A stretch of 48,755 bases of DNA from assembly GCA_030532685.1 (NCBI GenBank), contig JAUNKN010000014.1, positions 1 to 48,755 of the forward strand, given 5' to 3'. The stretch is from Bacteroidales bacterium. Lineage in GTDB: Bacteria; Bacteroidota; Bacteroidia; Bacteroidales; Bacteroidaceae. Under the pieces are notes generated by a model. It was not told the DNA's origin. It did no database searches and saw nothing but the letters and a program-made list of their open reading frames with translations. A program made the translations under genes and the position numbers. Shown here one piece after another: positions 8,901 through 48,755 of the stretch. Position 1 is the first letter of the stretch. Every line of letters starts with the position of its first letter.

Positions 8901-9195
8901 AACGCTCGGTCATTTCCTCTCGCTCATCGACCTTTCTGCCCAGCCCAATGTCTTGAAAATGCGTCTTTCTTGGCAAGGTACACAAGTGCCAGGCATTTAC
9001 GAGATTGTAGAAGTTGCCCAAGCTGAGGGACATTCCATTCTCTCTGGGCTCTCTTCTTTGCCCTTCGCCACAGCTCCGTCCACCTCCTTGCACATTCACG
9101 ACCTCCAAGGTCGCTTGCTGCGCACCGATGGCAACACTCAGGGACTTCCTGCCGGCATTTATATCGTTGGCGGTCGCAAGGTTCGTTTGCGATAG
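5902..9195 (+). CDS. Secreted GH84 beta-N-acetylglucosaminidase with T9SS sorting domain
   Basis: 1097 aa. Signal peptide at 1-24 (MNKLSFLFASLLFFGG...ATAA). Residues about 25-170 resemble the N-terminal alpha/beta domain of GH84/GH20 enzymes. The catalytic barrel starts near 175 (RGLVEGYYGYPY) and includes KMNTYMYGAKSD, FIWAIHPG and the paired catalytic aspartates D298-D299 in FAVFVDDVG, as in the Bacteroides thetaiotaomicron GH84 enzyme. Residues about 785-925 form a discoidin (F5/8 type C)-like domain, with a second beta-sandwich at about 930-1040. The last 35 residues (DLQGRLLRT...LPAGIYIV) match a type IX secretion C-terminal sorting domain. It likely cleaves GlcNAc from host glycans or hyaluronan-type substrates at the cell surface. 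It is transcribed alone, with a terminator 25 bp downstream. Confidence 0.9.
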   Translation: MNKLSFLFASLLFFGGLTATAADVYTIYPIPQSQVAGQGSVRFSQQVTLVCDTHIDQATRARAVQVLQGAGLTPLVAEKPSATGSNLYLAVSGHDGLAEQKATALRLNRAVLKKEGKFDRHILHLFNEGEAAQVVIVGETSDAAFYALASLEQMLERGTQNLPCVTLNDYADQQSRGLVEGYYGYPYTVAVKKDLMRFMMRMKMNTYMYGAKSDVYHSADWEKPYPTRISAEQRKNGLLTQDDIKDIAATSAATKVNFIWAIHPGNDFVKHPTVVRRIMSKFDNMYKLGVRQFAVFVDDVGVPDSEQECQTNADRLTAVQKAIDKKWNTEGATPESRVKPLHFVPQVYTLSWVSEPRRKRFYKALQSCPDKITIYITGAGVWSVPNSGDLAVTKRELGRNVAWWWNYPCNDNADEQVYPSDMYTNFMEMRSVDTHATMPKALENGLGIVSNPMQQGEVSKTALFSVADYAWNNDAFDNKKSWEASFSHILNTPEKRMAYKTLIPYIRWNDPTEMQAAISAFKAGNTQRMSLLLDKLASALQTMLALKDSQVESDRLLYADLAPWLAKLHAMVGATRGMIEVNKAQDRATKWEKYVQASHTIASLDTDEAFTAYALEGLGHGISVSKRQCAPAAKYFFPFMATLNNEGLGRNFFGTTTKDIEVVKSSEQLRGEVRLFKGKAYLTLNNSPLPPRSYIGMMFKEPVRPARIEAQPDLLERYNFLYSANGKDWTRLTPAKLSQHDWVKYLVCYNNTESEQSLTLSAAQLSLTLPEQVAISNIDVPVNSAGNGGSNSSLGKKAIIDGDPHTFFASNKNQARDDTYTLHLASPTDVKDVRLYFGTLNGDHLQAGRVEASVDGKTWISLRVKGRNTVTGGINEATDYAPNVKYLDFVGQVKAAKFLRLVVTNPQTNKWLRLYDIQVNLEHYQAQFAPNVTDARGTRLDAATDKKGTTAIDEAKGGSLVYEFQQLAPLSEVQIYWNQQGGEVKVELWNEATHTWTSAGTLGHFLSLIDLSAQPNVLKMRLSWQGTQVPGIYEIVEVAQAEGHSILSGLSSLPFATAPSTSLHIHDLQGRLLRTDGNTQGLPAGIYIVGGRKVRLR

Positions 9196-9219
9196 TCCTT
9201 TCCTTTTTTACAAGTTCTC

Positions 9220-9255
9220 ATCCCTGCTGCACACATGTTGCAGCAGGGATTTTTT
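9220..9255 (+). terminator. Rho-independent terminator after the GH84 gene
   Basis: Perfect 12-bp arms at 9220-9231 and 9239-9250, a 7-base loop and a run of six Ts (9250-9255). It lies 25 bp after the stop codon. Confidence 0.9.
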
Positions 9256-9334
9256 AGGCTTGAGCGCGAGAGGCAGAAGGGAGGAGGATTTATCTGGCGC
9301 AAGGAGATAGAAAAATGAGTGTGGGACATCGTTT

Positions 9335-9422
9335 TATTATTTCCGCGCAATTATTTAATTATTCCCGCGAGATTATGAAATTAAGTCCGCGGAAATAATT
9401 AAATAATTGCGCGGAAATAATA
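9335..9422. repeat. 88-bp inverted repeat with CGCG every 22 bp
   Basis: A perfect 29-bp inverted repeat (9335-9363 versus 9394-9422) encloses a 30-bp centre with five further pairing bases (9365-9369 with 9388-9392 shifted by a single mismatch). CGCG tetramers start at 9344, 9366, 9388 and 9410, exactly 22 bp apart, separated by A/T-only or nearly A/T-only stretches. It lies alone in the 383-bp gap between the GH84 terminator and menD, upstream of the menD promoter. No coding sequence is supported in this gap. Confidence 0.9.
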
Positions 9423-9507
9423 CGCATAGCTCTGAGTGGCGAGAAATGCCCCTTGTCGTTAGGCATTTTGTGTGCCGATTTTGCAGCGGCGAAAGGGCTA
9501 CAAAGGC

Positions 9508-9538
9508 TTGGATTAGGGCATTTTTTTATGTACTTTTG
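9508..9538 (+). promoter_or_regulatory. Bacteroidales promoter of the men operon
   Basis: TTG at 9508-9510, 20-bp spacer, TACTTTTG at 9531-9538. The menD ATG is 40 bp downstream at 9579. Upstream in-frame starts (from 9453) precede the promoter and are rejected. Confidence 0.75.
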
Positions 9539-9578
9539 CTTAGCTTTTCGACCTCGAAAGGCAGGCAAAAGGCTTTCT

Positions 9579-11117
9579 ATGTACTCTTCGCACTCCCATC
9601 TCAACATTCTCACCGCCCTCCTCCTTGCTCATGGCATCGAGGAAGCCGTGGTGTGTCCTGGTTCGCGCAATGCCGCCATCGTGCACAACCTGCACGAGGC
9701 AGGGCTGCATCTGCACCCCGTGACCGACGAGCGCAGCGCAGCCTTTGTGGCCATAGGTATTGCTCTGCGTGTGCGCCGTCCTGTGGTGGTGTGTGTCACT
9801 TCAGGCAGTGCGCTGCTCAATACTTTGCCAGCTGTGGCCGAGGCCGCTTTGCGGCACATCCCCCTCATTGTTCTTTCGGCCGATAGGCCTCCGCAATGGA
9901 TAGACCAACTGGACGGACAAACCCTGCCGCAGGTCGGAGCGTTGCAACCCTATGCCCGTACCTGGCACTTGCCCCAGCCCCACGACGAGGAAGAACGCTG
10001 GTGGGTGGAGCGTTTGGTCAACGAAGCCTTGCTGGCTACTGCCCACGAGGGCGGTAGTGTGGTGCATCTCAATGTGCCGTTGCGCGAGCCTCTCTTCGAT
10101 TATACCGAAGCCCAATTGCCCAAGGTGCGTGCTGTTTGCGAGTACCGGACTGAGGGGCAGCGTGCCATTCCCACCAATCTCCTCGCCGAAATCGAGGCCT
10201 CGCGCCTCCTTGTGGTCTATGTGGGCGAACGCACCGAAGCCCTGCCCGTGGAGTGGCTGCACTTGCAGGCCACGGGCAAAGCACTCCTTTATGCCGAATG
10301 CCTGAGCCAAGCGGACGACACCACGGTGGCGCATGCACTCGATGCCGACGATGTGCGCCCCGACATGGTGCTGCATGTGGGCGGAGCAAGTGTGAGCAAG
10401 CATTTCAAACTCTTCCTGCGCCGCTGTGCCGACTGCAAGGTGGTGCGCATCGACGAGGAGGCACAGCTACACGACACTTTCATGCACCTCTCGGCCCATC
10501 TCATCGCGCCGCTTCAAGCCGTGGCTCGCCAGCTGGACGAAATGCTCTCGCCCAAGTTGGCCGTGCAAAACTTCCTGGCACTGCACAAATTTTCCGCTCC
10601 CACACCGCTGCCCCAGGACCTTGAGGCCATCTTCGTGGGCAACAGCTCCATGGTGCGCTGGGCCAATCGTCACTTTGCGCAATGCACCCTGCCCATCTTT
10701 GGCAACCGCGGCACCAATGGCATCGAGGGCAGCCTCTCGGTGGCTGCAGGCTATTCGCTTGTGAGTCAGCACAAGGTGCTTTGCCTCTTGGGCGACCTCT
10801 CCTTTTTCTACGATGCCAATGCCCTTTGGAACGAAAGGCTCGACGGCCGCTTGCGCATCCTCATGGTCAACAATGCCGGTGGCGCCATCTTCGACCACAT
10901 TGCAGGCATCGGGCAAAGCCCAGCCTATGCCGCTTGCATCAAGGCCGAACATCGTGCCACGGCCGTGGGCATAGCCCAAAGCTATGGCTGTACCTATCGT
11001 GCGTTGCATGTGGAGCGATTTGCGGACGAAGCCACAGCACTCATCGACCAACTGCTGGCCGTGGAGAGTCAGCGTCCCGTAATCTTTGAAGTATTTATCC
11101 CTAACTCCCTACTCTAA
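9579..11117 (+). CDS. menD: 2-succinyl-5-enolpyruvyl-6-hydroxy-3-cyclohexene-1-carboxylate synthase (MenD)
   Basis: 512 aa, a little shorter than typical MenD (about 550). It is a thiamine-diphosphate enzyme that joins isochorismate and 2-oxoglutarate in menaquinone synthesis. Visible: N-terminal pyrimidine-binding domain with [10 protein letters not shown] and VTDERSAAF (ThDP-activating glutamate), [10 protein letters not shown], and LSADRPP; C-terminal pyrophosphate-binding domain with [17 protein letters not shown] and the metal-binding [13 protein letters not shown] followed by [10 protein letters not shown]. The start is set by the promoter at 9508-9538. It is the first gene of menD-menB-menCE, two bases before menB. 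menF (isochorismate synthase), which often precedes menD in Bacteroidales, is not present here. Confidence 0.95.
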
Positions 11118-20285: not shown

Positions 20286-20350
20286 GACCAATGAAACTTT
20301 CTGAGAGAATGAGGCAGAATAGCGGCCAGCGGTATGGCCTGCATGGGAAG

Positions 20351-20400
20351 CAGAAAATCCTACGTGCGTCGTAGAATTTTCTACGTGTGAAGAAGAAAAT
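20351..20400. repeat. CACGTAG intergenic repeat, copy A
   Basis: Contains CCTACGTGCGTCGTAG (20359-20374) and TTTTCTACGTGTG (20377-20389), the reverse-complement form of a repeat also at 34659-34736, 40659-40715 and 48713-48755. It lies between the U32 gene and lpxH. Confidence 0.8.
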
Positions 20401-34484: not shown

Positions 34485-34658
34485 CGACAAGCTCTCGAGG
34501 GCTCACACAAGGCGGATGGAGCGTTTTATCTTCGATCAGCCATTATATGAAGGGAATACGCATAGCCTGCTACACGATTTTTTATGGCTGATGAACTACA
34601 TTGTTTTGCAGATGAGGCTTCCTTGCCTTCTCTGTATGAGAAGCAGGAAATCCTCCTT

Positions 34659-34736
34659 CCCACGTAAAATTTTCTACGACGCACGTAGGATTTTTTCCTT
34701 CCCACGTAGAAATGCCTGCGACGCACATAGAAAAAA
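34659..34736. repeat. CACGTAG intergenic repeat, copy B (double)
   Basis: Two tandem units: CCCACGTA...CTACGACGCACGTAGG (34659-34697) and CCCACGTAGAAATGCC...CGACGCACATAG (34700-34736), the second more diverged. Lies between convergent genes, just before the ompH terminator. Confidence 0.85.
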
Positions 34737-40545: not shown

Positions 40546-40658
40546 GAAATCCTCGCTCGCACTGCTGCACAGCCCTGAGATAGATATCTGTTGTCCATGG
40601 CACAGCAACAGCCCAAGGAAAACAAAACGGTGCTTCTCAAGAGGGCAAAAAACTCCTC

Positions 40659-40715
40659 CCCACGTAGGATTTTCTTCTTCCCACGTAGGATTTTCTACTA
40701 CGCACGTAGGATTTT
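40659..40715. repeat. CACGTAG intergenic repeat, copy C
   Basis: Contains CCACGTAGGATTTTC (40660-40674), CCCACGTAGGATTTTCTAC (40680-40698) and CGCACGTAGGATTTT (40701-40715): three CACGTAGGATTTT cores. The 40546-40848 stretch has no gene otherwise. Confidence 0.85.
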
Positions 40716-48524: not shown

Positions 48525-48712
48525 GTAGTGGCTTCATAGCGATTCCCTCCTTATGCTTCTTCCTTCCTATCCGCTCCATTTTCCTTTGTATTCCCCTCTC
48601 CCTTGTTCTTGGCAAGACAAGTTCTATTCATGCGCTGTGGCTTAGACCGATGCCTTGCAACGGTAAGCTGCTCTTCTTCGGCATCGGACAAGGCAAGCCG
48701 CTTTTTCTTCTT

Positions 48713-48755
48713 CCCACGCAGAAAATCCTACGTGCGTCGTAGAAAATCCTACGTG
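48713..48755. repeat. CACGTAG intergenic repeat, copy D (cut by window end)
   Basis: CCCACGCAGAAAATCC, TACGTGCGTCGTAGAAAA and TCCTACGTG in the reverse-complement orientation of copy C. It probably continues beyond the window. Confidence 0.85.

Follow-up and report, generated by a model that had tools for sequence, protein, structure and literature searches.

A phased palindrome upstream of menD in a Bacteroidales bacterium is best read as one copy of a species-specific dispersed repeat

Introduction

In the intergenic gap between a GH84-type gene (PF07555) and menD, a Bacteroidales bacterium carries an 88-bp near-perfect palindrome, in which four CGCG cores follow one another at 22-bp steps (9335..9422, assigned to neither strand). 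Does this element serve the menaquinone genes beside which it stands, is it one of a set of phased sites spread over the chromosome, or is it a repeat that has merely settled there? We address this question by considering the whole stretch of DNA analysed, that is, the 48,755 nucleotides of contig JAUNKN010000014.1 (assembly GCA_030532685.1; hereafter, the window), together with the genome to which it belongs (54 contigs, 1.87 Mb, 85.5% complete) and with genomes of the same genus and order.

Results

Structure of the palindrome and its neighborhood

The geometry given in a preliminary description of the locus, made from the sequence alone, holds in full: the four CGCG cores start at 9344, 9366, 9388 and 9410, and the outer 29 base pairs of the inverted repeat are perfect. 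Taken to its full extent, the repeat joins 9335-9369 to 9388-9422, its 35-nt arms showing 97% complementarity across a gap of 18 nt. It is bounded by terminal inverted repeats, the left one, TATTATTTCCGCG, at 9335..9347 on the plus strand and the right one at 9410..9422 on the minus strand, and the central module, AGATTATGAAATTAAGTC, lies between cores 2 and 3 (9370..9387, plus strand). The fold is far beyond what chance would give: as RNA, 9331-9426 reaches -50.3 kcal/mol (z -10.3) and, as DNA, the element reaches -34.5 (z -9.2), with 0 of 200 shuffles as good in either case. Judging from its symmetry, the palindrome might also extrude as a cruciform.

As had been proposed, the element is neither a terminator nor a CRISPR. 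A pattern scan of 9150-9650 returned no terminator-like match, namely, a G+C-rich stem followed by a run of T, within 9335-9422 on either strand. The AT-rich spacers between the cores are common to the copies described below and are partly inverted copies of one another, which rules out a CRISPR, where unique spacers would separate the repeats. A search of 9100-9700 against Rfam yielded 11 matches at E values up to 1, all below the gathering score; the best matches to the element itself are miRNA-precursor hairpins, all far below their gathering scores, and we attribute these to the long stem rather than to kinship.

The only terminator-like site in 9150-9650, placed by the scan at 9220-9250, is the intrinsic terminator of the upstream GH84 gene (9220..9256, plus strand), which lies outside the element, and thus the GH84 transcript has its own stop. 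Downstream, the probable menD promoter occupies 9508..9538 on the plus strand, with TTG at 9508-9510 and TACTTTTG at 9531-9538; the two boxes are 20 bp apart, an arrangement that we take to be the Bacteroidetes promoter form. The palindrome is separated from the TTG by 85 bases, in agreement with the distance described previously, and from the menD start, taken as the ATG at 9579, by 156 bp. The menD product carries thiamine-pyrophosphate enzyme domains, and its closest named relatives among the matches found are encoded at 3 loci of Prevotella MAGs (42-46% identity).

Near-identical copies at unrelated loci

A BLAST search with 9300-9460 against the own genome produced 24 matches, and the exact end TATTATTTCCGCG is found 21 times (reversed control, 0), in each case inside a copy of the same element or inside a half copy at a contig end. 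We refer to this set as family A. It comprises 7 complete copies, the one in the window included, 1 copy with a degenerate left end (on contig C53) and 6 halves at contig ends, corresponding to at least 11 loci if the halves pair up. In the given orientation, identity to the window copy is 87/88 on C29, 86/88 on C18 and 80/88 for copy C30b, with the lowest value, 62/88, on C53. Conserved inverted ends are present in 7 of the 8 located copies, and similarity among the copies mostly stops at TTTATTATTTCCGCG. Beyond this boundary, TT precedes 7 of the 9 readable left ends, that of the window copy among them, and AA follows every readable right end except that of the window copy, where CG is found instead; where the outer TT and AA are kept, the element measures about 92 bp.

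All 8 located copies are intergenic, 6 of them in tandem, 1 in a convergent and 1 in a divergent gap, which is close to the background of gaps of at least 100 bp (76 tandem, 26 convergent and 28 divergent, as delineated with an in-house gene finder). The genes beside the other copies include recG and those for a DJ-1/PfpI protein, a UvrD-like helicase, a YfiO-type lipoprotein and a 5'-nucleotidase, among others. The preliminary description had named identical copies scattered at random sites, as for a mobile repeat, as an observation that would refute its reading, and near-identical copies (86 and 87 of 88 positions) do occur at unrelated sites. Among its suggestions, that of a small palindromic element is supported, with the qualification that this element belongs to a multi-copy family and is no isolated remnant.

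The neighbors of 5 of the 6 half copies were scanned. Four of these adjoin ordinary genes, namely, those for an EPSP-synthase-family protein, superoxide dismutase (SOD), CutC and a peptidase C25, and because of this, at least these 4 are not the ends of a hidden transposon with an adjacent transposase gene; the half copy on C41 adjoins a protein without a Pfam match. The peptidase C25 (gingipain family) gene, L031:6-2840 on the minus strand, is the neighbor of the half copy in which contig C30 ends. Contigs C14, C23, C24, C30, C41 and C51 all have ends inside family A, and the right end of C39 and the left end of C41 fall inside a second family, B, described below. Since several contig ends fall inside these repeats, the true copy numbers are probably higher than those assembled.

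Outside the own genome, no DNA match to family A was found in any of 40 relatives, nor did its end pattern occur in the genome_contigs and viral_contigs collections, nor was there a match among plasmids and phages, these collections being ones that may omit the window's own or very near records. The palindrome is thus best read as one copy of a species-specific, noncoding, intergenic dispersed repeat.

Modules in register and complementary arms

The number and spacing of the cores (four, 22 bp apart) do not vary among the 8 located copies, nor does their length of 88 bp, made up of four 22-bp modules. No variation was seen in the inner two cores and very little in the outer two. Within this frame, the inner modules, with their 18-nt spacers, have been exchanged and inverted in register in some copies. 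Module 2 of the window copy (C39), when inverted, corresponds to module 3 of copy C30a (16/18), and the inverse of the window's central module is found in module 2 of the half copy on C41 (13/13 of the part present). Similarly, module 2 of the copy on C16 resembles module 3 of other copies (15/18) and only 8/18 positions of its own place.

The opposite arms have kept their complementarity: 92.7% of cells are paired, compared with 90.4% for shuffles, and both sides have changed in 8 cells, neither value being reached in 500 shuffles. Two other measures of covariation among these 11 related sequences are not beyond the shuffles, 60 of 500 being as high for pairs changed and 71 of 500 for pair types. 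The complementarity could reflect selection for pairing or symmetry, or else the copying of one arm from the other.

Traces of the mode of spread

Family A has some of the features by which MITEs are recognized, being 88 bp long and noncoding, with 13-15-bp inverted ends and several dispersed copies. The 85.5% complete assembly yielded no longer element and no autonomous transposon that shares these ends, each of the 21 end matches falling in the 88-bp element or its halves, and it gave no match to the Y1_Tnp domain of RAYT/REP-type transposases (PF01797). Across the genus, a Y1 transposase scores over the cut-off in 26 of 58 genomes, and its presence does not follow that of the arrays described below (G012, G018 and G071 have arrays and no such transposase). 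The longest direct repeats flanking the 7 complete copies agree neither in length nor in place, and their sum of 13 compares with 8.7 on average under the null (p = 0.06). Hence, we describe family A as MITE/REP-like and assign it to neither class, given that there is no Y1 transposase, no longer element with the same ends and no clear target duplication. We infer its mobility from the identity of the copies alone, and copying of the whole element would be the simplest cause of 86-87 identical positions out of 88 at unrelated loci.

A second family with the same two-turn unit

The own genome holds a second dispersed modular family, family B, of different sequence and commoner than family A, built of 21-bp modules of the form CTACG..CGTAG with A/T linkers. 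Its 14-mer CTACGTGGGAAGAA has 152 matches with at most 1 mismatch (control, 0), and its arrays consist of about 2-5 units in mixed orientation. Four of them, assigned to neither strand, lie in the window: 20339..20395 (3 units of 21 bp), 34632..34730 (4-5 units, the first one weak), 40653..40709 (3 units) and 48707..48755 (at least 2 units, cut by the contig end). When 368,509 bases of the own genome were surveyed at a strict setting, all 9 noncoding tandem arrays had a period of 21 or 22 bp, and with a lower score limit and no coding filter, the same holds for 16 of 26; the 21-bp arrays are mostly family B. A third 21-bp unit, GAATGTACATTCAGCGACTTT, unlike either family, is present in about 3 copies at L052:15338-15405 on contig C16.

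A recurrent period with changing sequence across the genus

Of 58 genomes in the genus, 10, the own one included, contain four CGCG cores at 22-bp spacing; the sequences are unrelated, and the match in G064 looks like chance by eye. A control motif, GCGC, at the same spacing also matched 10 of 58 (16 of 58 for the two motifs combined), and many of these control matches are, by eye, tandem arrays of 22-bp period. Because the control matches equally many genomes, the common trait is the period and not CGCG. At 21-bp spacing, CGCG matched 13 of 58 genomes, some of these matches perhaps lying in coding sequence, as 21 is a multiple of three; at 25 bp and 19 bp, only 1 of 58 and 0 of 58 matched, with 0 for both controls. 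In a sample of the order that leaves out the own genome, the 22-bp spacing was found in 4 of 246 genomes, compared with 9 of 57 in the genus (p = 6e-5, uncorrected for G+C content, in which the two samples differ).

A tandem-repeat survey of stretches not chosen by repeat content, conservative in its strict setting, gives weaker evidence in the same direction. In 30 congeners, 9 of 27 noncoding arrays had a 21-22-bp period (7 of 30 species), versus 1 of 15 arrays in 16 outgroup genomes, one of which (G039) consisted only of N; at p = 0.07, this excess is only suggestive. Counting 42-bp arrays as double units changes the figures to 11/27 versus 2/15. In one congener surveyed apart, G004, none of 19 arrays had this period. 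Its one-contig genome (G004:C1, L070-L089) instead contains 9-, 18- and 27-bp arrays, for example, of GAAGTTAAC, as well as longer ones of 65-83 bp. In another, G055 (L097 and L098), long 22-bp arrays exceed 10 units, and the unit drifts along them from GGCAC..GTGCC to GGGAA..TTCCC.

Dyad symmetry within the unit is significant when units are combined (p = 0.002) but individually so (p < 0.05) in only 6 of the 30, these units having been picked by hand, with 3 of the 30 coming from outside the genus. As the spacing counts and the tandem-repeat survey indicate, the two-turn habit is real in many, although not all, species of the genus.

Upstream regions of menD in relatives

The preliminary description had suggested comparing the GH84-menD gap among related genomes. 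With the own genome as a positive control, none of 29 relatives was found to carry GH84 ahead of menD. Their menD is at most 56% identical to the own one, and these relatives are therefore too distant to show an empty site. At a mismatch penalty of 7, the array finder misses the window's own element; we used a penalty of 5, which finds it, for the 29 regions. Upstream sequence is short in 4 of these, below 1,100 bp in all 4 and below 400 bp in 3 (L116, 95 bases; L125, 1,036; L135, 374; L136, 167). A 20-23-bp array of another sequence was found in 2 of the 29 same-genus regions and none in the other 27. From array density, 1.3 such cases would be expected over all bases (P = 0.36) or 0.6 over noncoding bases (P = 0.12), and the result, the only one that leans toward a link with menD, is not significant.

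The two arrays deserve description as such. That of G011 (L136 3073-3135) is perfectly palindromic, with arms of 29 bp and an internal repeat, GTGACTTTAAAGTCACACGGA, of 21 bp, and precedes the menD match by about 90 bp. In G057 (L122 1308-1378), a different, AT-rich palindromic array of 21-bp period lies about 110 bp upstream. In G004 (L126), a lone 11-base match to the family A end is present upstream of menD, with no array.

Discussion

Origin and maintenance of family A

We favor, with a probability of roughly 70%, the explanation that the palindrome is a species-specific, MITE/REP-like dispersed intergenic repeat, which is copied in trans, shuffles its modules and is mostly a passenger at menD, its 22-bp phase stemming from the family and from the habit of the genus rather than from regulation of menD. 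In such a scheme, the whole element would be duplicated in trans by a transposase or recombinase for which either the ends or the hairpin is the substrate, and recombination between copies at the CGCG joints would shuffle the modules and keep their number. The copy at menD would be mostly a passenger, lodged downstream of the GH84 terminator and ahead of the menD promoter. If it were transcribed, its RNA would fold into a hairpin whose stem of 34 pairs could affect mRNA stability. The two-turn unit itself could be set by the spreading enzyme or by a protein that wraps DNA or binds it in phase.

The last of these possibilities can be turned into an explanation of its own, in which each 22-bp module is a dimer site, an oligomeric protein of the nucleoid or of a regulatory kind wraps or bridges the four phased sites, and copies across the chromosome are kept for this function. 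Phased binding, which the preliminary description had suggested as cooperative binding on one DNA face, is a live rival because the period outlasts the sequence: 21-22 bp is retained in both families of the own genome and in many congeners while sequences differ, and spacings of 25 and 19 bp are nearly or wholly absent. The core number, always exactly four among the 8 copies, and the near invariance of these cores fit it as well. However, conservation of sites alone would not extend to the AT-rich spacers, over which three copies are nearly identical (86-87 of 88), a pattern of recent copying; family B arrays are not always of four units; the dyad symmetry of the unit is weak in many species; and no binding protein was found. 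We therefore regard a binding array maintained for its function as unlikely.

Less probable still is a transcribed RNA hairpin kept for its effect on mRNA, be it on stability, processing or bidirectional termination. The very stable fold, the retained complementarity of the arms with some double changes and the location of 6 of 8 copies between tandem genes would all be expected of such a hairpin, but the prevalence of tandem gaps follows the genomic background, the GH84 gene already has a terminator, the element contains no terminator-like match and its Rfam matches are far below the gathering scores. As for a menD-specific operator or cruciform switch, which the position 85 bp upstream of the probable promoter and the palindromic arrays before menD in 2 of 29 congeners might have suggested, we consider it very improbable, given that the same element stands beside unrelated genes at 7 other located loci, is absent at the DNA level from 40 relatives and has no counterpart array in 27 of the 29 menD upstream regions, 4 of the 29 being short, the 2 exceptions being within chance. 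A link to the menaquinone operon is accordingly not supported, since the other copies adjoin unrelated genes such as recG.

Relationship to known repeats

Among the best matches listed in a literature search for 21/22-bp or palindromic intergenic repeats in Bacteroidales, which covered few subscription papers, nothing came closer than BrickBuilt. BrickBuilt is a MITE with a 23-nt minisatellite in Porphyromonas gingivalis, with 19 intergenic copies in one strain; it is limited to P. gingivalis and P. gulae and is predicted to form long stem-loops. Its direct repeats, 1 to 22.8 in number, are accompanied by a leader, a tail and GAGACC ends of IS5-like type, and 22-nt and 41-nt tandem repeats are mentioned for strain W83 (PMC4596501). 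Family A is similar in occurring in Bacteroidales, in its intergenic copies, in its units of about two turns without spacers and in its predicted long stem-loops, and differs in having neither leader nor tail, in ending at TTTATTATTTCCGCG, in the constant number of four cores in the 8 located copies and in forming a single palindrome. With these ends, 22-bp units and no leader or tail, it is not a member of BrickBuilt.

REP, REPIN and CGTC-tagged palindromes are short, extragenic and multi-copy, with doublets that form hairpins, and the CGTC repeats have no dedicated transposase (PMC3116915, PMC3733652). Family A shares with them the short extragenic palindrome and the many copies and, as with the CGTC repeats, no dedicated transposase was found in the 85.5% complete assembly, yet it has four phased modules in place of one or two REPs. 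Membership was rejected, as 9335-9422 contains neither GTAG nor CGTC nor their complements and the own assembly no Y1/RAYT match. The MITEs ERIC, Correia and RUP are characterized as short, AT-rich and intergenic, with inverted ends and a stable predicted hairpin (PMC10969869). All of these traits recur in family A, which stands apart in that no parental IS with the same ends was found, in showing no clear target duplication and in its internal 22-bp modular phasing.

The iterons of plasmid origins are helically phased direct repeats with a unit of about 22 bp, and family A resembles them in unit length and phase; unlike iterons, it is dispersed over the chromosome and palindromic as a whole, and no replication initiator was found among the scanned neighbors of its copies.

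Implications

Beyond the own species, it is tempting to envisage a genus-wide system in which the two-turn unit of 21-22 bp and the modular, often palindromic, intergenic build of the arrays are conserved while the sequences are replaced from species to species. We regard this as rather unlikely. If it were true, one would expect a rapidly evolving protein that binds or wraps DNA, or else a recombinase, with fixed geometry and a sequence specificity replaced in each species, and the element in the window would be one four-site array within that system.

In practical terms, a number of the assembly's contigs end inside families A and B, and these repeats should be masked in promoter searches. 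For the biology of the organism, a tempting lead toward a menaquinone operator gives way to a dispersed repeat family, and behind it, a pattern of the genus comes into view, whereby short intergenic arrays in many species keep a two-turn period and differ in sequence. Should a protein with fixed geometry underlie it, this pattern would offer a natural system for studying the coevolution of DNA specificity and repeats and would represent, for Bacteroidales, a chromosome-wide architecture of a new kind.
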